Below, piece by piece: positions 5,012-24,492 of a stretch of 42,187 nt of DNA (its first letter is position 1; the number at the start of each line of letters is the position of its first letter). Under the pieces are notes generated by a model. That model worked only from the letters and a program-made list of their open reading frames with translations, had not been told where the DNA came from and searched no databases. This DNA is from an uncultured Flavobacteriales bacterium (GTDB taxonomy: Bacteria > Bacteroidota > Bacteroidia > Flavobacteriales > BACL11): NCBI GenBank assembly GCA_905612305.1, contig CAJQRK010000055.1, positions 1 to 42,187 on the forward strand, given 5' to 3'. The position numbers and the translations under genes were made by a program.

Positions 5012-6757
5012 ATGTTAAGAACACACAATTGCGGTATATTAAACATTAATCATGTTAACCAAGAAGTAACCCTAAGCGGATGGGTGCAAAAAACAAGAGA
5101 TTTAGGAGGAATGACTTTTTTAGATTTGCGTGATAGATACGGAATTACTCAATTGGCATTTAACATGGATGTAAATACTGATTTATGTACGGAAGCCAGA
5201 AAATTAGGCCGTGAATTTGTGATTCAAATAACAGGAAAAGTAGTAGAAAGAGAAAGCAAAAACAAGAACATACCAACAGGAGAGATTGAAATTGAGATTA
5301 GTAGATTCACAATACTAAACAGATCAAAAACACCACCTTTTACTATTGAAAACGAAACAGATGGTGGAGAAGAAATAAGAATGAAGTATCGTTACCTAGA
5401 CATAAGAAGAAATCCAATAAAAGGAAACTTACTGCTAAGACATCAGGTGTCAAAAGCAACACGAAATTATTTAGACAACCAAGGGTTTATTGAGGTGGAA
5501 ACACCTTACTTAATAAAATCCACACCTGAAGGAGCAAGGGATTTTGTAGTGCCAAGTAGAATGAATGAAAAGCAGTTTTACGCATTACCACAATCGCCAC
5601 AAACTTTTAAGCAATTGCTTATGGTAGGTGGAATTGATAAATATTATCAAATTGTAAAGTGTTTTAGAGATGAAGATTTGCGTGCCGACCGTCAGCCAGA
5701 ATTTACTCAAATTGACTGTGAAATGTCATTTATTGAACAAGAAGATATCCTGAATATGTTTGAAGGATTAACTCGCCATTTACTAAAAGAAGTAAAAGGA
5801 GTTGAGCTGAATGAATTCCCAAGAATAACTTATGATACTGCAATGAAGCTCTATGGTTCGGACAAACCAGATATTCGTTTTGACATGCAGTTTGTAGAAA
5901 TGAATGACCTATCCCAAGGAAAAGGTTTTGGGGTGTTTGACAATGCTGAACTTGTAGTTGCTATTAATACAAAAGGATGTGCTAGCTACACAAGGAAACA
6001 ATTAGATGCCTTGGTAAATTTTGTAAAAACTCCACAAGTTGGAGCAACAGGACTTATCTATTGCAAGTATAATGAGGACGGAACATCAAAATCAACTGTA
6101 GATAAGTTTTTTGATGAAGATGCTAGAAAAGCTTGGGCCAAAAAAGCAGCTTGTGAAAATGGTGACTTACTACTAATAATGGCAGGGGGTACAGACAAAA
6201 CTAGAAAGGCTTTAGGAACTTTACGACTACACTTAGCTGAGGAATTAGGGCTTAGAAATCCGGAAGTATTTGCCCCATTATGGGTCTTGGATTTCCCTTT
6301 ATTGGAATGGGATGAAGACAGTGAAAGATACCATGCCATGCACCACCCGTTTACCTCACCAAAGCCAGAAGATATTGCAAAACTAGACACTGACCCAGCG
6401 GCAGTGCGTGCCAATGCTTATGATCTTGTTATCAACGGAAACGAAATAGGTGGTGGAAGTATAAGAATACACGATAAAGCTTTACAACAGCTCATGTTTA
6501 AGCATTTAGGGTTTAGTGAAGAACAGGCAAAAGAACAATTCGGATTTTTGATGGAAGCCTTTGAATATGGAGCACCACCACATGGAGGTGTTGCCTTTGG
6601 ATTTGATCGTTTATGTGCGATAATGGGTGGGCAAGAAAGCATCCGTGATTTTATTGCATTCCCAAAAAACAATTCAGGTAGAGATGTGATGATTGACTCG
6701 CCATCCTATATTGATGAAGTGCAATTAAAGGAATTAAATATTACCTTAGGAGATTAG
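5012..6757 (+). CDS. aspS: Aspartate--tRNA ligase
   Basis: 581 residues from the ATG at 5012, the normal bacterial AspRS length. N-terminal OB-fold anticodon-binding domain (about residues 1-110, including [20 protein letters not shown]). Then the class II catalytic core with motif 2 ([19 protein letters not shown]), the bacterial GAD insertion, and motif 3 ([10 protein letters not shown]). It charges tRNA-Asp in the cytoplasm. The frame is open further upstream, but residues encoded there are not family-like and overlap divergent tadA, so the later ATG is preferred. A near-match promoter element (TAATTTCG at 4986-4993) precedes it. It ends 16 bp from the convergent oxidase operon. Confidence 0.97.
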
Positions 6758-16444: not shown

Positions 16445-17425
16445 ATGTCGCGTAATTATTTTTTCATTTTTTTTTGTTGTTTGCTTTTTTCCTGTTCTAC
16501 AGAACCTAATCAGCAGATTAAGAAACCTGCTGCTAAGAAAAAAGCGGTGGAAGTGCCTACATTTAATGCAGATTCTGCTTATTATTTTGTGGAAAAACAA
16601 GTCAGTTTCGGCCCAAGAGTAATCAGTAGTAAGGGCTGGAAGAATTGTGCCGTTTGGTTAGAACAGAAATTTAAAACCTATACCCCAAATGTAATTGTAC
16701 AGGAGGCTCCTATCACAACTTATGACGGGAGAAATCATACTTTAAAGAATATTATTACTTCTTTTTCTGCTGATAAAAATAATAGAGTTGCTCTTTTTGC
16801 ACATTGGGATAGCAGACATGTTGCCGACCATGATACTAAAAAACAAAACTCTCCTATTTTAGGAGCAAATGATGGAGGAAGTGGAGTTGGTGTTTTGTTG
16901 GAAATGGCTCGGCAGTTCAGTATAAAAAACCCAAAAATTGGGGTGGATATTATCCTTTTTGATGCAGAAGATTATGGGCAACCTGAAAATTCTGGCTTTC
17001 CAATCATGCAAAATTCTTGGTGCTTAGGGTCACAATACTGGAGCAACAATCCCCATAAAGCAAACTACTTTGCTCGCTATGGAATTTTACTAGATATGGT
17101 TGGTGCAAAGAATGCAACTTTTAGGCATGAGGAAATTTCTTTTTATTACGGCTCAATTATTTTGCAAAAGGTTTGGCGCAAGGCAAGTCGTTTAGGTTTT
17201 GGTAATTATTTTGTATTCGAAAATGCCAAACAAATTATGGATGACCATTATTATGTAAATACGATTACAGGTATCCCCACCATTGACATTATTGAGTATG
17301 ATCCATCAACTGAAAGTAATTTTAATAAACATTGGCACACCCATAAAGATAATATGGATAATATTGATAAAAATACGTTAAATGCTGTGGGACAAACTTT
17401 GCTGGATGTAATTTATAATGAGTAA
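16445..17425 (+). CDS. M28-type glutaminyl-peptide cyclotransferase, lipoprotein
   Basis: 326 residues. A signal peptide with lipobox LFSC (Cys17) makes it a periplasm-facing lipoprotein. The M28/type II glutaminyl cyclase fold shows AHWDSR (119-124), ILGANDGGSGVG with Asp143, FDAEDYG with Glu175/Asp176, ILLDMVG, DDHYYVN and HWHTHKDNM with His298/His300. Spacing and motifs resemble the Porphyromonas and animal glutaminyl cyclases more than M28 aminopeptidases. The enzyme closes N-terminal Gln into pyroglutamate. In Bacteroidota, mature secreted proteins very often begin with Gln after signal cleavage. Starts 4 nt after cysS. It is the last gene before the accessory block. Confidence 0.85.
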   Translation: MSRNYFFIFFCCLLFSCSTEPNQQIKKPAAKKKAVEVPTFNADSAYYFVEKQVSFGPRVISSKGWKNCAVWLEQKFKTYTPNVIVQEAPITTYDGRNHTLKNIITSFSADKNNRVALFAHWDSRHVADHDTKKQNSPILGANDGGSGVGVLLEMARQFSIKNPKIGVDIILFDAEDYGQPENSGFPIMQNSWCLGSQYWSNNPHKANYFARYGILLDMVGAKNATFRHEEISFYYGSIILQKVWRKASRLGFGNYFVFENAKQIMDDHYYVNTITGIPTIDIIEYDPSTESNFNKHWHTHKDNMDNIDKNTLNAVGQTLLDVIYNE

Positions 17426-17453
17426 GGGTTCAAATCCTGCTACCCCGTCTTTT
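17417..17453 (+). repeat. tRNA 3'-end-like repeat, left copy (possible att site)
   Basis: About 37 bases that align without gaps to 24208-24244. Both have AATGAGT, then 9 mostly different bases, then a perfect 13-mer (AATCCTGCTACCC, here 17433-17445), then CTTT. The segment reads like the end of a tRNA: canonical T-loop TTCAAAT, T-stem strand CCTGC, acceptor strand TACCCCG. The 5' T-stem is decayed and no tRNA body precedes it (the glutaminyl cyclase gene ends at 17425). It is interpreted as a remnant attachment site. Confidence 0.55.
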
Positions 17454-17482
17454 TTAACTGATATAATGAATGCTAATATAGC

Positions 17483-18022
17483 TTATAATTCATCTTCAAA
17501 TGCTCTTATTTCTTTAGCTATTCTATCAGATTCAATTGTTAATCTTGACATCTCGTCTGTGATATCTCTCTCCTCCATTCCACAAGCAAAATAAATGGGC
17601 ATTTCATTGTCTTGATTATATACATTATCCCAAATTGTATTTGCTGCAAAATAACCATAAAATTCTAAAATCTGTAAAGTAATTTTCTTCAATAATATCT
17701 CAGAAGATATTTTAACAAAAAGGTTGCCATAAGAGAATCTAATAAAATCACTATTATCAAGTTCAATTTCCATACAATGTATTGGATAATAACTATTTTC
17801 TTCTATTATTGAGTTAATATCAATATAGTGCCTCTCTCTAACCCACATTCTTTCTTCATTTTTCCATAATAAACTTTGTTCTTTTTTATTTTTCATCCCA
17901 ATCATCTCCAAAATTCTAAAATCTCTATTTCTAAGAAAAGGGAGTGTCGCTAATGCGTCTACTGATGTAAATGAAGCCCAATTTTCTTTCTTATTTATTG
18001 CTAGCCAATCTAACTTTTCCAT
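17483..18022 (-). CDS. Hypothetical cytosolic protein, last gene of accessory operon
   Basis: 179 residues, no signal peptide, no membrane helix and no motif I recognise. It is acidic toward the C-terminus, with a predicted helical end (ITDEMSRLTIESDRIAKEIR). It starts with MEKLDWLAINKKENW, and its ATG overlaps the stop of the 865-residue gene by one base, so it should be translated with it. It lies next to the left tRNA-like repeat. The reading frame is supported by coupling and by the absence of any competing frame; function is unknown. Confidence 0.7.
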   Translation of the reverse strand: MEKLDWLAINKKENWASFTSVDALATLPFLRNRDFRILEMIGMKNKKEQSLLWKNEERMWVRERHYIDINSIIEENSYYPIHCMEIELDNSDFIRFSYGNLFVKISSEILLKKITLQILEFYGYFAANTIWDNVYNQDNEMPIYFACGMEERDITDEMSRLTIESDRIAKEIRAFEDEL

Positions 18023-20619
18023 TATTTTTTAATTTTAATATAAATGAAAAGTGTTATAATGAGTATTAACAGAATTAAAGGTAGTAATTTATAAATATCT
18101 CTTTTTTCATCATTATACTCCGTCACTACATCAGTATGATTTCTTTTTAATATATTCCAAGTATCATTATAATTTTTTACATTTCTGTAATTTGAACATT
18201 CTGCTATAACTTCTGTAAAATAATTTGTGTTTTTATATAAAGAGTCTATTAATAAAGCTATTGCGATTTTTTCATGTTCTCTTTTTTCTACCTCTATCCT
18301 TTGCAGGTAGCTTATATCCCAGTCAGAATGCCAATCTTCTTTATAGTATTTTATTTTATGAAATGATGTTGAGAATGGATTGTTTAATTTATTATATAAT
18401 TTAAAATTAAATTGAGCCAGGCTCTCCATATCATCAGTATATTCAATTGATTTGTTTAGATATTCTATTGATTTGTTTTGATTTCCATATTTATGAAGGA
18501 AAGAATCTATTTTAGTTCGTACGTATTCAGCATCTAAGACATTAAATGGTGGGCTATCAGAATAATAAATACCTCTATTAAGGCCAGAGTGCCAAATTCT
18601 GCTATATCCCCAGAATGGTGAGCTATATACACATGATAAATCAAAGTTTAGATTTGATATATCTTTTCTTAATTTTTTTAAAATCAAACTATCATATTTG
18701 GCAAGGTTTATTTTCTTGTGTTTAAGTTTGATATCTGCTTTCATTGATATAATGGTTTCTAGAGCAGTTTTTTTGTTATATCTCTTAATTAATTTCTTAT
18801 CTGTTCTAGAGAAGTCAACAGGAAAGTTGTAGTAGTTCCATGAGTAGGGTCTGATTTGATAATATGCATTCCCTCCCTTCCCAGTTTCACTGAAAATATG
18901 GTCGGGTAATAAATCAAAATATTTTTTAGCATTTAATAAATTATGATCTCTAAAATAATTTGTTCCAATTTGTTCTATAACTGCAAATCTTATAGATTTT
19001 GGATGCCTCTCACTAAAAGGCAATTGGGTTTTTTCAATAAGAGTTAAAAGTTTCATCAAGTCATCATTAGTCATAAATACATCAAGAATATTTTGATAAT
19101 GAAACCCTTTTTTAGATGTAAATAGGATTGCTGATACAAAATCATGTTTTCCGACAGCTTGTGTCATTCCTAATTCAAAGTAAGATTCCATTTCACCAGA
19201 CAAATAAGTTTTTCTTAGTAGTGTTGTTAATCTAATATTTAGTTTCTTGTGCGCATCTTTAGTATACTCTTGGTTAAATTGCTCTAAAACTTTCAGGCCT
19301 TCTAATTGTATGACATATCCTTTGTGTTGTTTTTTTTCTAAATAAGTAGCATTTTTAAGAGCAGTTTCAGAACGACTATATTCTCTTCTTGCATTTATAT
19401 AATCTCCAAGCATAAATGAACTGTAACCCCTTAGAAGATGTAATAAAACTTTATTTTCAATATTAATTGATTTTAGATATTTATCTAAATCAATTGCATC
19501 AGCTAAAGCAAATTTATTTACAAACTCAGAGTTCTTAGTGTAATCTTCTTTGAATTCTCCAGAAATATATAAAGGAGAAAATAAGTTGTATTCTATTTTC
19601 TGAACATACTGAGTTAATGCAGCCTCAAATAGCTTAGAGTTATTATTAGTTTTTTCTTTGAAATAATCAAGTAAAGAAATATTTACACCATCAAATATGG
19701 ATACTTTCACTAAATTTATCTGATCAATTTCTTCTTGGTTTTTACAATAAGAAAGGCATTTTTCCCAATCAAAGTTACTGTTTAAATCGATAACATAACT
19801 TATCTCAAATTTAGTATTCTTAAATAATTTTGGATATTTAAATAGTTTGCTAAATAAATATACGCTTAACTCTCTGTTATTTCTGTATTCAAAATATTTA
19901 TCAGTAGGATATAATGCATAATTATGAGTTACTGCTCCGCAGAAATGTGAATAAGCAATTACATTAATTTTTTTTGAGTCATTAAAATACTTCATATAAT
20001 CACTCACTACTTCAGCTGGATTTCTGTTATGTAAATTAAGATCAATTAATAGCATAGCATATTCCTCCACTAAATCTGATCTGCAGTTCTCAATTTCTTC
20101 AATTATATTGTTCTGTAATCTCTTTTTAGCATCTTCAGTATTCTGTGAGTTAAATAAAACTACATGTCTGTACATTAAATATTTTAATAATCCAAGCTGA
20201 TTTATATCTTGAAACTCTTGAATTATATCAAAAGAATAAAATTTGGAAATGGAGAACTCATAAATCCTCCTTTGTTTATGTTTATAATTTTCTTTAAAAA
20301 TAATTTCAGTGTAGTTGTTGGTAATGCTTACTGAACTTACAATCTTACTACACATTAGATTTATTACATCTTTACTAATTCCTAATTTTGTCAATTTAAT
20401 AATCAAATTATCCTCCTCCATATTATAGATATCATAATATCCATTGTAGTACCATTTTCTTTTGTCTTCAGTAGCGTTGTACCCATATTCTACTGAGGCA
20501 AAAAGATTTGGAATTAGAAAATGCTTATGTCTTTCTTGTGTGTAACTTGGGCCCAGCCAACATGCAACTACATTTATAGCAAATAAAATACTACTGATAA
20601 ATAGAAATAATTTTTTCAT
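18022..20619 (-). CDS. Large periplasmic helical-repeat protein with C-terminal membrane anchor, unknown function
   Basis: 865 residues. The N-terminal signal sequence (MKKLFLFISSILFAIN) ends in VVAC, a plausible lipobox at Cys20 followed by WLGPSY. The body is largely alpha-helical with TPR-like stretches (for example LLRGYSSFMLGDYINARREY and NYFRDHNLLNAKKYFDLLP). A C-terminal hydrophobic helix (LLPLILLILIITLFIYIK) with KIKK at the end would hold it in the inner membrane. A protein with both a lipobox-like Cys and a C-terminal anchor is unusual. It overlaps the upstream lipoprotein gene by 29 bp. I know of similar long hypothetical proteins beginning with AC after the signal in Bacteroidota, but no named family. 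Confidence 0.85.
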   Translation of the reverse strand: MKKLFLFISSILFAINVVACWLGPSYTQERHKHFLIPNLFASVEYGYNATEDKRKWYYNGYYDIYNMEEDNLIIKLTKLGISKDVINLMCSKIVSSVSITNNYTEIIFKENYKHKQRRIYEFSISKFYSFDIIQEFQDINQLGLLKYLMYRHVVLFNSQNTEDAKKRLQNNIIEEIENCRSDLVEEYAMLLIDLNLHNRNPAEVVSDYMKYFNDSKKINVIAYSHFCGAVTHNYALYPTDKYFEYRNNRELSVYLFSKLFKYPKLFKNTKFEISYVIDLNSNFDWEKCLSYCKNQEEIDQINLVKVSIFDGVNISLLDYFKEKTNNNSKLFEAALTQYVQKIEYNLFSPLYISGEFKEDYTKNSEFVNKFALADAIDLDKYLKSINIENKVLLHLLRGYSSFMLGDYINARREYSRSETALKNATYLEKKQHKGYVIQLEGLKVLEQFNQEYTKDAHKKLNIRLTTLLRKTYLSGEMESYFELGMTQAVGKHDFVSAILFTSKKGFHYQNILDVFMTNDDLMKLLTLIEKTQLPFSERHPKSIRFAVIEQIGTNYFRDHNLLNAKKYFDLLPDHIFSETGKGGNAYYQIRPYSWNYYNFPVDFSRTDKKLIKRYNKKTALETIISMKADIKLKHKKINLAKYDSLILKKLRKDISNLNFDLSCVYSSPFWGYSRIWHSGLNRGIYYSDSPPFNVLDAEYVRTKIDSFLHKYGNQNKSIEYLNKSIEYTDDMESLAQFNFKLYNKLNNPFSTSFHKIKYYKEDWHSDWDISYLQRIEVEKREHEKIAIALLIDSLYKNTNYFTEVIAECSNYRNVKNYNDTWNILKRNHTDVVTEYNDEKRDIYKLLPLILLILIITLFIYIKIKK

Positions 20620-21583
20620 AATCGGTTTTGTTATTTATTAAAAAATTGGAATTTAAACTGAAAAAAATAATTTCAGTACTATCTTGTCTTAAGTTCTCTT
20701 TTAGAAAATTCATCATCTTCTCTACTTCCTTTATATTAGGGTATTCATACCTTATTTCATCCCTTTTAGATATTCTATGCCTATTATAAAAATGAGCTTT
20801 CTTAGCTTTAAAATATCCATTTTTCTTTTGATACATATTTACACTGTCAATATTAAGAGGATCAAAGTCAGGGATTAAACTTTTTATTAAACCATGATGA
20901 TAATGAACTCCCCAGCTAAAAGCAGGTAGAGCAACATCTAATTGTAGGGGGTAATCTTTTAAATACCCATCCAAATATTGTATGGCTTTATTATATGTGA
21001 AAATAGAATTCTGTGTATTTGTATCTTTAGGTGACTCCAAATTATAAATCATCATTATTCCCTTTTTTACAGGAGGGACCCCAGTTGATTTAGCGTATTT
21101 TATTTGATGCAAACGAATTGTTGCGCTTAACTCCTTAACATCTTTTGATAATAGTGATAATAGTTTAAAGTATGATTCTTTAGTTCTCAATGACCAATCA
21201 CAATCTATTTGTAGAATATCAGAGTTTGGCATGACACCAATATCTTTAGCTCTTATAATATTCTGTATTATTATATTGTAAACCTTATCTATGCTAAAAT
21301 TTAATAAGATTGCATTCTCAATATATATTACAGGAATTGTACTTATCGTGCTATTTTGAAAACCGGAGTTAACTTTATGGGTTGAGATACTTTGATTTTT
21401 CTCATCAAATTTTAAATCAAAAATTCTTAGGTATATTTTGTTGATGTTATTCTGAGTTAGGAATTCTTCATGCTTTTCGTTTAATTTAGTACTATGTTTC
21501 CACCAATATGTAGAGAATTGAAATGATGTTTCTGATTGGCAGCTAAACATAATTAATATGCAGATAACAAGAAATAGTCTCAT
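20591..21583 (-). CDS. Putative lipoprotein, possible TIM-barrel fold, unknown function
   Basis: 330 residues. Signal peptide and lipobox IMFSC (Cys15). The body has alternating strand/helix segments like a glycosidase-type barrel: FSTYWWKHS, INKIYLRIFDLKF, STIPVIYIENA, ILQIDCDWSLRTKESYF, LSATIRLHQIKYA, KGIMMIYNL and LDVALPAFSWGVHY. Acidic pairs such as DCDW are candidates for a catalytic site, but this is inference. The set resembles a conserved Bacteroidota hypothetical family that I recall next to large secreted proteins like the one downstream. The start overlaps the TPR gene stop by 4 bp (ATGA) and the end overlaps the next gene by 29 bp, showing tight coupling. Confidence 0.8.
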   Translation of the reverse strand: MRLFLVICILIMFSCQSETSFQFSTYWWKHSTKLNEKHEEFLTQNNINKIYLRIFDLKFDEKNQSISTHKVNSGFQNSTISTIPVIYIENAILLNFSIDKVYNIIIQNIIRAKDIGVMPNSDILQIDCDWSLRTKESYFKLLSLLSKDVKELSATIRLHQIKYAKSTGVPPVKKGIMMIYNLESPKDTNTQNSIFTYNKAIQYLDGYLKDYPLQLDVALPAFSWGVHYHHGLIKSLIPDFDPLNIDSVNMYQKKNGYFKAKKAHFYNRHRISKRDEIRYEYPNIKEVEKMMNFLKENLRQDSTEIIFFSLNSNFLINNKTDYEKIISIYQ

Positions 21584-22038
21584 TTATTATTTAAGATTTT
21601 TTTACATAGATTATTATAATTATCACAAAAGGGGAGAAGTGGCTGTTCTTTTATTGCCGCTCTGTTGTTGTATAGATCTGCTCCTTTGGGTTCTAATAAT
21701 ATTGATTTTTCTATGTCAATTATCGCAAGCTCATATTTTTTTAAATAGAAATATGCATTAGAACGATTGTAATAAGAAGATACACTTAAGCTATCCTCTT
21801 TAATTACTTTAGTAAAGTCAGTAATTGCTTTTTCAAATTCATGTAATTTGAAATAACAATTAGCTCTAAAGAAATAAGAGTTCCTATTTTCTTTGTGTTT
21901 TATGGATTGATTAAATTCTTCAATTGCTAAAGTATATTTTCCTTGTAATTTAAGTGCCAAGCCAGCTTCACAAAGCTCATTGCTTTTTCTTGTCTGAAGC
22001 GAAAGGGTTATGATGATTATTAAGAGTATTTTTAACAT
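21580..22038 (-). CDS. Exported tetratricopeptide-repeat protein
   Basis: 152 residues. N-terminal signal (MLKILLIIIITLSL) followed by QTRKSN, so a mature N-terminal Gln is possible. Three TPR units are visible from about residue 22 to 125, with the usual G/Y/A and D-P spacing (GLALKLQGKYTLAIEEF, RANCYFKLHEFEKAITDF, RSNAYFYLKKYELAIIDI followed by LLEP). TPRs bind other proteins. Its place between cytosolic-type and secreted genes suggests it supports the secreted pair, which is inference. Confidence 0.85.
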   Translation of the reverse strand: MLKILLIIIITLSLQTRKSNELCEAGLALKLQGKYTLAIEEFNQSIKHKENRNSYFFRANCYFKLHEFEKAITDFTKVIKEDSLSVSSYYNRSNAYFYLKKYELAIIDIEKSILLEPKGADLYNNRAAIKEQPLLPFCDNYNNLCKKILNNK

Positions 22039-22048
22039 AATAATAGTA

Positions 22049-22534
22049 TTAAAATAGTAGGTTCTCTATATTTAGATCAATATCTTTTGCTGACAACTTT
22101 ACATCCAATATATTAGTTTTTATTTGCTCTATCATCCCGTCAATATCTTCTTTAATTTCAGCTATTTCTATCTGAAGTTCATTTGCCAATGATGCTATTA
22201 CGTTTTCTTTACTCAAGCCTCTGCTGACATGATGTTCCATAATATAATTTCCAATATAATATATGTATTGTTCTGTAGATCTAATCTCATTTAGAATTTC
22301 TTCATCTTCATTTAAATATCTCTGAAATTTACCTTTATCCAGATCTGAAGTAATATACCAATCATCTGCATTAAATCTATTTGCAAAATCATACTGCACA
22401 TGTTTATTTCCATCACAAAAAGCACAATGAGGACCCTCTATCCAAAAAAATTCTCTCCTCAATCTTTTTATATCTTCTTTGTTTACAAAACCTTTTCCAA
22501 GACATCTTGGGCAATCAATTATTTTATTATTCAT
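22049..22534 (-). CDS. Hypothetical protein with two CxxC zinc-knuckle-like motifs
   Basis: 161 residues, no signal peptide. Cys8-x2-Cys11 in CPRCLGKGF and Cys37-x2-Cys40 in HCAFCDGNKHV resemble the CxxCxGxG repeats of the DnaJ zinc domain, so a single bound zinc is likely. The C-terminal half is acidic and helical (IASLANELQIEIAEIKEDID). It begins 1 nt after the stop of the upstream 190-residue gene. The role is not recognised; an adaptor or chaperone-like part is possible. Confidence 0.75.
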   Translation of the reverse strand: MNNKIIDCPRCLGKGFVNKEDIKRLRREFFWIEGPHCAFCDGNKHVQYDFANRFNADDWYITSDLDKGKFQRYLNEDEEILNEIRSTEQYIYYIGNYIMEHHVSRGLSKENVIASLANELQIEIAEIKEDIDGMIEQIKTNILDVKLSAKDIDLNIENLLF

Positions 22535-22535
22535 C

Positions 22536-23108
22536 TTAATCTTGTTTTTGTGTTTTATTTTGTTGCTTATCTACTTTTTTCATTAAATCAATAATAATGA
22601 AAACAGGATCCTCATCAAATATTAATAATCTGTTGAAAGCCCACACTATATCCTTGCTAAGATTAAAATGCCTAACACGTTGAAAATATATCTGATCTTC
22701 ATATAAATAAGGGGCTAGTAATGAAATTCCTATTTCCATGCTTATAGTGCAGTTTTTAGTATCGACTCTAATCAATCCCATGTTCATAAATGTGTTTAGG
22801 TGAGAAGATAAGATTAAAATGTTTTTTGCTTTTTCAGAATCAAACCCTTCACTAATCCAAACTAAGGATTTAAATAAATCTGTGTTTTCATCAACATGAT
22901 AATGAAATTTTTTACAAATCTGATGTTTCTCATTAATTGCATAAGTAGTTTCAATAAACTTCATGCTTTCATAAGTGCCATAATTACAGCCACTTTGTTC
23001 GTAATCCCTTTTTAAAGACAGCCAAACTTCAGAAACCCTATTATTGATGTTTCTTAATTTTCGATACTTCTTAATGTTATCTTTAATTTCTTGAAATATT
23101 TTTATCAT
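22536..23108 (-). CDS. Hypothetical protein, possibly YbjN-like
   Basis: 190 residues without a signal peptide. The basic N-terminal helix (IKDNIKKYRKLRNINNRVSE) is followed by an alpha/beta segment (LSSHLNTFMNMGLIRVDTKN, then CTISMEIGISLL) that resembles YbjN/type III chaperone-like folds. This likeness is weak. It is separated from its neighbours by 9 nt and 1 nt, consistent with one transcript. Unknown function. Confidence 0.65.
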   Translation of the reverse strand: MIKIFQEIKDNIKKYRKLRNINNRVSEVWLSLKRDYEQSGCNYGTYESMKFIETTYAINEKHQICKKFHYHVDENTDLFKSLVWISEGFDSEKAKNILILSSHLNTFMNMGLIRVDTKNCTISMEIGISLLAPYLYEDQIYFQRVRHFNLSKDIVWAFNRLLIFDEDPVFIIIDLMKKVDKQQNKTQKQD

Positions 23109-23117
23109 ATTTTAAAT

Positions 23118-23318
23118 TTATTTGGTTTTTAAATAAGCTTTATATTGTTTGCTTAATCTAATTTCAAGAACTTCACAAGCAATTAAAAATTCTCTGTTTT
23201 TCATTTCTTTTACGGCATCTTTATAGTCCATTAATTGGCGAATTGATAAGTGCTTGCAAAAGGTAATTAGCTCTATATATGTTTTATAATACATGTAATC
23301 TATTTTCTGATTAAGCAT
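23118..23318 (-). CDS. Small hypothetical protein of accessory operon
   Basis: 66 residues, helical and basic (MLNQKIDYMYYKTYIELITF at the start, ending QYKAYLKTK). The ATG at 23318 is chosen because it overlaps the upstream stop by 8 bp. An in-frame ATG at 23354 would overlap by 44 bp. No domain recognised. It is accepted mainly on its position in the coupled gene row. Confidence 0.55.
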   Translation of the reverse strand: MLNQKIDYMYYKTYIELITFCKHLSIRQLMDYKDAVKEMKNREFLIACEVLEIRLSKQYKAYLKTK

Positions 23319-23700
23319 GATGCTCTTCACAGTAATTACACTGCATAAGTTCAATTATTTCCTGCTCTCTAGCTGTATATTTTAGTGAGTACTGGTATCC
23401 GGATTTATCTCCTGTAAAAATCTTTGTTATTGCTCCATAGGAACAATTCAAACAATGCCCTTCTGATTGATTTAAGTAGGTGTCTCCTTTATGTTTGAAA
23501 ACTTTAAACCATTTTTTCATTTCTGCAAGTAATGTATATTTGCAGGGTTCATCATCTATATTGATATCTTCATCAATTAAATCTACTAATTTCACTATAT
23601 TCATTTGTGATATAGCTTCAAATATTTTTTCACTTTCATCATCAAACACACTACTTTGATAATTTAAAATTATTTTTTCTTTTGTCTTTTTTTCTCTCAT
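23311..23700 (-). CDS. Hypothetical protein with two CxxC pairs, first gene of accessory operon
   Basis: 129 residues. The C-terminal half has Cys-x2-Cys in GHCLNCSYGAI and again in MQCNYCEEHH, about 37 residues apart, with a YQYSLKYTA strand between. This suggests a small zinc-binding beta domain. The N-terminal half is acidic (IDEDINIDDEP). I recall similar Cys-Asn-Cys proteins among Bacteroidota hypotheticals, without a named function. It is the most upstream gene of the row, and a 550-bp gene-free stretch lies ahead of it. No perfect TAnnTTTG element was found directly upstream. Confidence 0.7.
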   Translation of the reverse strand: MREKKTKEKIILNYQSSVFDDESEKIFEAISQMNIVKLVDLIDEDINIDDEPCKYTLLAEMKKWFKVFKHKGDTYLNQSEGHCLNCSYGAITKIFTGDKSGYQYSLKYTAREQEIIELMQCNYCEEHHA

Positions 23701-23874
23701 CTAAATTGTTTTTTAGCACTCACAAGACTTCCAAATAGTTCCACCATTAACTACTTAAGAAGTAATTGCTCGTGCCGATTAATAAACGCTTAATATATAC
23801 AGCCCAAGAATTAATCAAGAGCAGTTGTTTGCTTTTAGATATTACATTGTTAATTGGCTTTTGTATTAGCTAAT

Positions 23875-23892
23875 CAACAATAAATATTGTTG
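23875..23892. repeat. Perfect inverted repeat, 8-bp arms
   Basis: CAACAATA and TATTGTTG separated by AA, about 175 bp upstream of the first accessory gene. It could be an operator for a dimeric repressor or a hairpin. No regulator gene is encoded nearby, so the function is open. Confidence 0.45.
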
Positions 23893-24207
23893 TTTGTTTC
23901 TGCTTTTCAGGGTTTGATTCACTGATGCAGAAAATGAAATTTATAAGAATTTCATTGAATTAACCTTCACTTATCTTACTTCTAATTTTTATGGTTTTCA
24001 TCTAGGTTTTGTAGGTGTTCAAAACGAATTGAGATGAAAATTTGAAAATTCATGCTTAAAGCGGACAGCTAAATTAATCCTCAATTTTTATATTTAAGAC
24101 ATTGTTGATAAATAGTTTGTAAACAAAGTTACTAACAGTAAATTTCTGACTCATAATTCTAATTCCATGAATGACTACAGGTTTGAGTGCTTGCTGTAAT
24201 ATAGTGA

Positions 24208-24244
24208 AATGAGTGTAGGCTGTAATCCTGCTACCCTGACTTTA
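24208..24244 (+). repeat. tRNA 3'-end-like repeat, right copy (possible att site)
   Basis: Direct repeat of 17417-17453 with the same perfect 13-mer (24224-24236). Here the T-stem still pairs (GTAGG with CCTGC, 7-base loop) but the loop sequence has changed to CTGTAAT. In the left copy the loop is canonical and the stem is broken. The two copies therefore look like separately decayed pieces of one tRNA 3' end. No tRNA body or acceptor 5' strand is found upstream. Confidence 0.55.
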
Positions 24245-24252
24245 TACTGTCT

Positions 24253-24492
24253 TTATTTCTTAATCGTATTAAGATAAAGCCGCTCCACCTTATCCCTTGC
24301 CCATTGGGTTTTTCTTAAGAACTTCAGGCTGGATTTGACAGAAGGATTATTGGTGAAACAATTGATGTTAATTTTATATCCAAGTTGTTCCCATCCATAT
24401 TCTTCCACCAGAAAATCAAGAATATCAATTAGCCTTATTCCGTGTAATAGATTATTGACTTGGAAGTTTTCAATATTAATTTTATCATTCAT
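24253..24492 (-). CDS. VF530 family (DUF2132) putative DNA-binding protein
   Basis: 79 residues matching the whole VF530 pattern: [20 protein letters not shown], then [32 protein letters not shown] and KVERLYL. The family fold is known from a Vibrio structure, but its cellular role is not settled. It has its own -7 element (TATATTTG) 59 nt upstream and is divergent from the ABC transporter. It marks the return to ordinary chromosome after the accessory block. Confidence 0.93.

Follow-up and report, generated by a model that had tools for sequence, protein, structure and literature searches.

Streamlined marine bacteria have scant room for flexible DNA. In the window analysed here (the whole stretch of 42,187 nucleotides, from an uncultured Flavobacteriales bacterium), a block of eight minus-strand genes is bracketed by two similar sequences in the same orientation, and the question is what this block is and how it came to lie between a glutaminyl cyclase gene and a VF530 gene. 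The best explanation, to which we assign a probability of roughly 0.8, is that the block (17427-24248) is an old, non-autonomous cassette at an insertion hotspot after glutaminyl cyclase, with eight genes, no integrase and a truncated copy of a dispersed repeat (REP) at its end, and that it derives from a tyrosine recombinase system targeting tRNA-Pro(TGG).

The block behind the glutaminyl cyclase gene

The direct repeats reported in the earlier note are genuine. Their 36-nt copies (17417-17452 and 24208-24243) are 78% identical and have AATCCTGCTACCC in common, and the shared 13-mer occurs eight times in the metagenome-assembled genome (MAG) of the window (G000; 1.33 Mb, estimated as 75% complete) and its reversed form, used as a control, not once, which excludes a chance repeat. 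The eight minus-strand genes between them, with no integrase among these, were also found as described:

16445..17425, plus strand: glutaminyl cyclase gene, left host flank, with the insertion hotspot at its 3' end
17427..17448, plus strand: left junction GGTTCAAATCCTGCTACCCCGT, a left (P') arm resembling the tRNA-Pro 3' end
17483..18022, minus strand: cargo gene, 179 aa (open reading frame, ORF; homologue in G034:C87; no Pfam, PADLOC or NCBIfam match)
18022..20619, minus strand: cargo gene, 865 aa (ORF; homologues in G034:C87 and G010:C191; one sub-threshold TPR match)
20591..21583, minus strand: cargo gene, 330 aa, lipoprotein-like N-terminus (ORF; 66-68% identity to G034 and G010)
21580..22038, minus strand: cargo gene, 152 aa, TPR protein (Pfam TPR_1, 9e-19)
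22049..22534, minus strand: cargo gene, 161 aa, CxxC motifs (ORF; homologue in G034:C87)
22536..23108, minus strand: cargo gene, 190 aa (ORF; homologue in G034:C87)
23118..23354, minus strand: possible cargo gene, 78 aa, TTG start (ORF only)
23311..23700, minus strand: cargo gene, 129 aa (ORF; homologue in G034:C87)
24180..24248, plus strand: right end, REP cut to profile positions 61-129 and lacking the part with two GGTGCAAA (nhmmer score 50; covariance model E = 4.8e-12)
24217..24238, plus strand: right core within REP, GG-CTGTAAT-CCTGC-TACCCTGA
24253..24492, minus strand: VF530 gene, right host flank (Pfam VF530, 2.8e-32)

Pfam gave nothing above the cut-off for the eight genes except TPR repeats, and nothing significant was returned by PADLOC and NCBIfam searches of the window's cargo genes or by a PDB profile search with the 330-aa protein. 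No tRNA gene was found within the window, and an Rfam search of the repeat loci, REP included, matched no family.

The two copies were initially read as decayed 3' ends of tRNA genes, and this holds for the left one in the sense that it mimics a tRNA. From GG onwards it is near-identical to the 3' end of tRNA-Pro(TGG), 21 of its 22 bases fitting the pattern in relatives, and it stands directly behind the glutaminyl cyclase stop codon. The simplest reading takes it for the elements' left (P') arm, by which the tRNA is made whole again when tRNA-Pro is the target. The right copy, on the other hand, is the element's own attachment repeat; it does not begin at a T-arm, as had been supposed, but corresponds to profile positions 61-129, the 3' portion of a repeat about 117 bp long that is dispersed in the genome. 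Nor is the AATGAGT ahead of both copies a matching flank: on the left it represents the final codons of glutaminyl cyclase (AAT GAG TAA) and on the right it lies inside REP, so the resemblance is a coincidence. Since REP has lost its GGTGCAAA half here and there are substitutions in both cores, the window cassette is probably immobile.

Twenty-seven loci from relatives share the codon at which the glutaminyl cyclase gene ends, and the sequence after the stop differs widely among them. Inserts of about 0.4-5 kb between this gene and VF530 in several congeners indicate that the place is a hotspot. A left junction of the window type follows the same stop codon in G012, G024 and G034 and is absent from the other relatives examined. 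It is extremely improbable that repeats merely joined unrelated contigs during assembly or binning: all the genomes are MAGs and assembly can be misled by short repeats, but the same layout is seen in many of them, on contigs as long as 1.06 and 1.39 Mb among others, and three further genomes have the left junction of the window.

The dispersed repeat and tRNA-Pro

REP carries two GGTGCAAA-like repeats and terminates at its 3' side in GTAGG-TTGTAAT-CCTGC-TACCCCGAC. Only this 3' part is tRNA-like, in a core of about 24 nt, and hence repeated insertion of tRNA-derived DNA, the second origin offered in the earlier note, is not borne out. The GGTGCAAA repeats upstream of the T-arm-like core are probably arm-type sites. 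Matches to the REP model number 15 in G000; within its family, 28 of 37 genomes have matches, and among 23 genomes from other families of the order a single one does (G042); these counts are lower bounds, as all genomes are MAGs and several rows of cassettes stop at contig ends. When the genomes of about 85,000 species were scanned for exact copies of the inner motif of REP, 44 loci were obtained, every one of them in a record named either Flavobacteriales or after families such as Cryomorphaceae, Crocinitomicaceae and Flavobacteriaceae. REP was not found in IMG/VR viral contigs or in phage and plasmid collections.

The target tRNA is tRNA-Pro(TGG), located away from the window. In relatives its 3' end reads GCAGG-TTCGAAT-CCTGC-TACCCCGA-C, which equals the core. 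A tyrosine integrase follows the intact tRNA-Pro within about 0.4 kb in G001, G005, G008 (broken), G013 and G016. The integrase is succeeded by cargo, for instance restriction systems, and then by REP in all of these except G005, where no REP was found in the stretch read downstream; in G008, G013 and G016 further cassettes lie beyond the first REP, each closed by a REP. In G026 and G036, cassettes without an integrase come directly after tRNA-Pro, and so an element with its REP directly follows the intact tRNA in six genomes (G001, G008, G013, G016, G026 and G036).

These integrases possess the domains Arm-DNA-bind_5, SAM_5 and Phage_integrase and are positioned directly behind tRNA-Pro, a core or a REP. 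Those near REP or tRNA-Pro cores form one branch, except for a distant one of G038, and other members of the integrase family adjoin tRNA-Val, Asp, Ser and Met. GGTGCAAA is found in the left arm at four of eight integrase-adjacent junctions compared with one of 95 others. This pattern would fit some autonomous elements having arm-type sites at both ends and cassettes having them at one end, but the presence of GGTGCAAA in only four of the eight counts against the model of a cassette system. So does G000 itself, an incomplete MAG in which no integrase of the core-associated branch was found, the sole hit being a 38% homologue beside tRNA-Val.

The integrase behind tRNA-Pro in G008 (L210 3124-4318, G008:C1) is interrupted by a stop or frameshift, and a copy at G008:C4:4757 is intact. 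Related tyrosine integrases adjacent to tRNA-Val(tac) were observed at L202 6650-8224 (G000:C7) and L138 (G008:C1:138735); from their neighbours, these look like a parallel element family with another target. A variant junction, GGGG-TTCATTT-ACTGC-TAC, was seen in a sister family (L203, G042:C1) and at the left end of an integrase-bearing element (L228 3939-4009, G006:C10), and may mark a sub-family with another overlap. Another piece similar to a tRNA 3' end, TTAGGTTCGAATCCTATATAGCTAA, lies directly behind a 212-aa gene (L103 ~6115-6200, G000:C19) and perhaps belongs to a second tRNA-targeting family. The repeat CTTTGGTGGACCTCTCGGTCC, present in 10 of 37 genomes and seen at L101 (G034:C87) and L260-L271, was considered as another tRNA-linked site and rejected, with a tRNA at only one of 12 loci; it forms a short hairpin before a T-rich stretch and is probably a terminator.

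Cassette rows, transfer and a proposed mechanism

Other rows begin behind the stop codons of host genes, away from tRNA-Pro. Up to 30 REP-type sites are present in a 1.5-Mb genome, and the genes between them include umuDC, restriction systems and numerous proteins whose C-termini are type IX-like. Where the first junction is not at tRNA-Pro, the preceding gene runs in the same direction in 32 of 39 cases (P = 7e-5), some of these genes possibly being cassette genes themselves. At several other host genes the left junction consists of host sequence up to GG, a T-loop-like heptamer and then CCTGCTACCCCGAC. A full tRNA-like core on both sides of such secondary sites counts against the cassette model, which accounts neither for these cores nor for the single cores at secondary sites.

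Among 57 cassette intervals the median length is 1452 bp; in 28 of them there is just a single ORF that reaches 70 aa. Small, secreted-looking proteins with a SYASFP motif recur as cassettes in numerous rows (L099 8245-8577, L103 6598-7137, L107 7482-7916 and L095 7743-8126); they are also found behind glutaminyl cyclase in G009, G010 and G011, with no core left there.

Several sites give evidence of movement. Queries made of joined flanks found the G000:C20 site, in front of thrS, empty and without any core in several relatives, and the C46 site empty in G001 and G006. The former is filled by distinct cassettes in G000 and G011 and holds a REP scar in G010. Cassettes with umuDC occupy differing contexts in G000, G002 and G013. 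Moreover, G006 and G024, from two different genera and with host DNA that is 79% identical, share one cassette body at 96% identity; together with its REPs the identity is 92.5% over 905 bp, and the homology starts about 40 bp before the first REP and stops in the core of the second.

The window block appears to have moved as well. In G034, a member of another genus, the glutaminyl cyclase gene is followed by a single core and then by the next host gene, and most of the window genes recur at a different locus beside another cassette-type junction; part of the block is also on a short G010 contig. The block is 75% identical between the window and G034, below the 79% of host DNA, which counts against the model and indicates that its move was old or indirect. 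The empty sites, the integrase-bearing relatives at tRNA-Pro and this second locus in another genus support the proposal in the earlier note of an old integrase-mediated island that has lost its integrase.

Two other accounts of the rows have to be weighed. REP could be a passive dispersed repeat, MITE-like or derived from a tRNA in the manner of a SINE, with rows formed by homologous recombination and the window block moved by ordinary recombination. Many copies are indeed scattered without an adjacent integrase, and recombination between 117-bp repeats could add or delete intervals. The earlier note had named many scattered copies unrelated to any tRNA as a refutation of an island origin. 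Yet the copies are linked to a tRNA and to an integrase clade: integrases lie directly behind the core and rows start at tRNA-Pro in six genomes. The direction of REP is fixed relative to the preceding gene, its likeness to tRNA is confined to the 3' part, and the homology of the transferred cassette stops in the core, all of which make a passive repeat very unlikely.

Alternatively, these may be ordinary tRNA-Pro islands grown by tandem accretion, in which every element originally had an integrase, deletions left the short cassettes behind and no enzyme works in trans. Islands with an integrase are a common sight at tRNA genes, and both broken integrases and truncated REPs exist, but a cassette of about 0.6 kb crossed genera as a unit, half of the intervals contain a single gene, and the cassettes at tRNA-Pro in G026 and G036 have no integrase. 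We therefore regard this account as unlikely too.

The cassette system that we prefer draws on the sequences and their distribution, the empty sites, the core-bounded transfer and the integrase neighbourhood as observed here. Autonomous elements, with the integrase next to the left end, would integrate in the T-arm of tRNA-Pro, the left arm restoring the 3' end of the tRNA; their right end would be the 117-bp REP, with two GGTGCAAA upstream of the T-arm-like core. Cassettes without an integrase would retain REP and core alone, and the integrase may act on them in trans, core against core. Such action would stack cassettes behind tRNA-Pro and would also bring them to secondary sites, immediately after the stop codons of host genes. 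The window cassette would have inserted after glutaminyl cyclase and become fixed there once the GGTGCAAA half of its REP had gone. What we infer is catalysis, the trans action, which bases cross over and in what order the events took place.

The recombinase appears to have spread and stacked cassettes, in integron-like rows, across a family of small marine Flavobacteriales. More tentatively, and at somewhat less than even odds, the system may be a working gene-capture platform convergent with integrons: single-gene cassettes would be gathered behind tRNA-Pro, and spread again behind the stop codons of host genes across the genome, by a tyrosine recombinase that acts in trans on a double-stranded, tRNA-derived site of 117 bp. 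Should the integrase indeed act on REP in trans, a lifestyle resembling that of integrons has evolved from a tRNA-targeting integrase of phage type, and REP would offer a simple means of cataloguing the mobile genes of this mostly uncultured group.

Comparison with known systems

The rows of short, mostly one-gene cassettes, each with a recombination site, are of the integron type: the repeat is at each 3' end, the integrase at the primary site, and remote rows are without an integrase. The system differs from integrons in that its core is tRNA-derived and there is no folded attC. Four integrases scored 45-52 bits against the NCBIfam model integrase_gron, far below its cut-off of 265, and scored better, though also below cut-off, against XerC, XerD and XerA models. 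DNA folding of both strands of one REP was no better than that of shuffled sequences (z = 0.96 and 1.06), and hence no attC-like structure was seen in the REP tested. An integron identity was rejected on these grounds.

Traits of tRNA-targeted islands and of cis-mobilizable elements, which are cited together with tandem accretion in PMC3146451, are likewise present: the target tRNA gene is copied at the element end and a tyrosine integrase lies by the attachment site. Units without an integrase may also be moved by an integrase elsewhere, as the units at tRNA-Pro and the unit-wise transfer indirectly suggest. A tRNA border and a tyrosine recombinase are shared with tycheposons as these are defined in PMC10872708, where they are described for Prochlorococcus as elements of 4-200 kb; the carriage of cargo and the small-genome marine hosts are shared as well. 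REP units differ from that description in being mostly 0.5-3 kb and in rows.

In the way it works, the REP system comes closest to the tandem ssrA islands of Dehalococcoides (PMC3146451) and to the additive islands known from marine bacteria. The former are also tandem, inserted at a T-loop and bounded by a direct repeat of an RNA gene 3' end, with a conserved motif upstream of the repeats and integration genes in only part of the islands. Their recombinase is a serine enzyme, their repeat of 20 bp comes with a 15-bp motif, and no repeat lies more than 100 kb from ssrA. In the REP system the recombinase is of the tyrosine type, the repeat measures about 117 bp, most units are short and carry one gene, and rows also stand behind host genes a long way from the tRNA. 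Additive flexible genomic islands are described for Alteromonas (PMC4119200) and Actinomarinales (PMC7771536), and tRNA-Lys repeats for Methylophilaceae (PMC10872708). There, too, a tRNA is the place where cassettes accumulate, a tRNA fragment closes each of them as a direct repeat, and the content is variable, with restriction and uncharacterised genes. These papers describe the tRNA fragment alone as the repeat and the sites at tRNA genes, in contrast to the long conserved site and the many sites without a tRNA in the REP system. No description of the REP system was found in the literature searched, the scope of which excluded subscription journals and preprints. We regard the system as tRNA-targeted accretion islands in an apparently new form, which have an integron-like layout and are not integrons.
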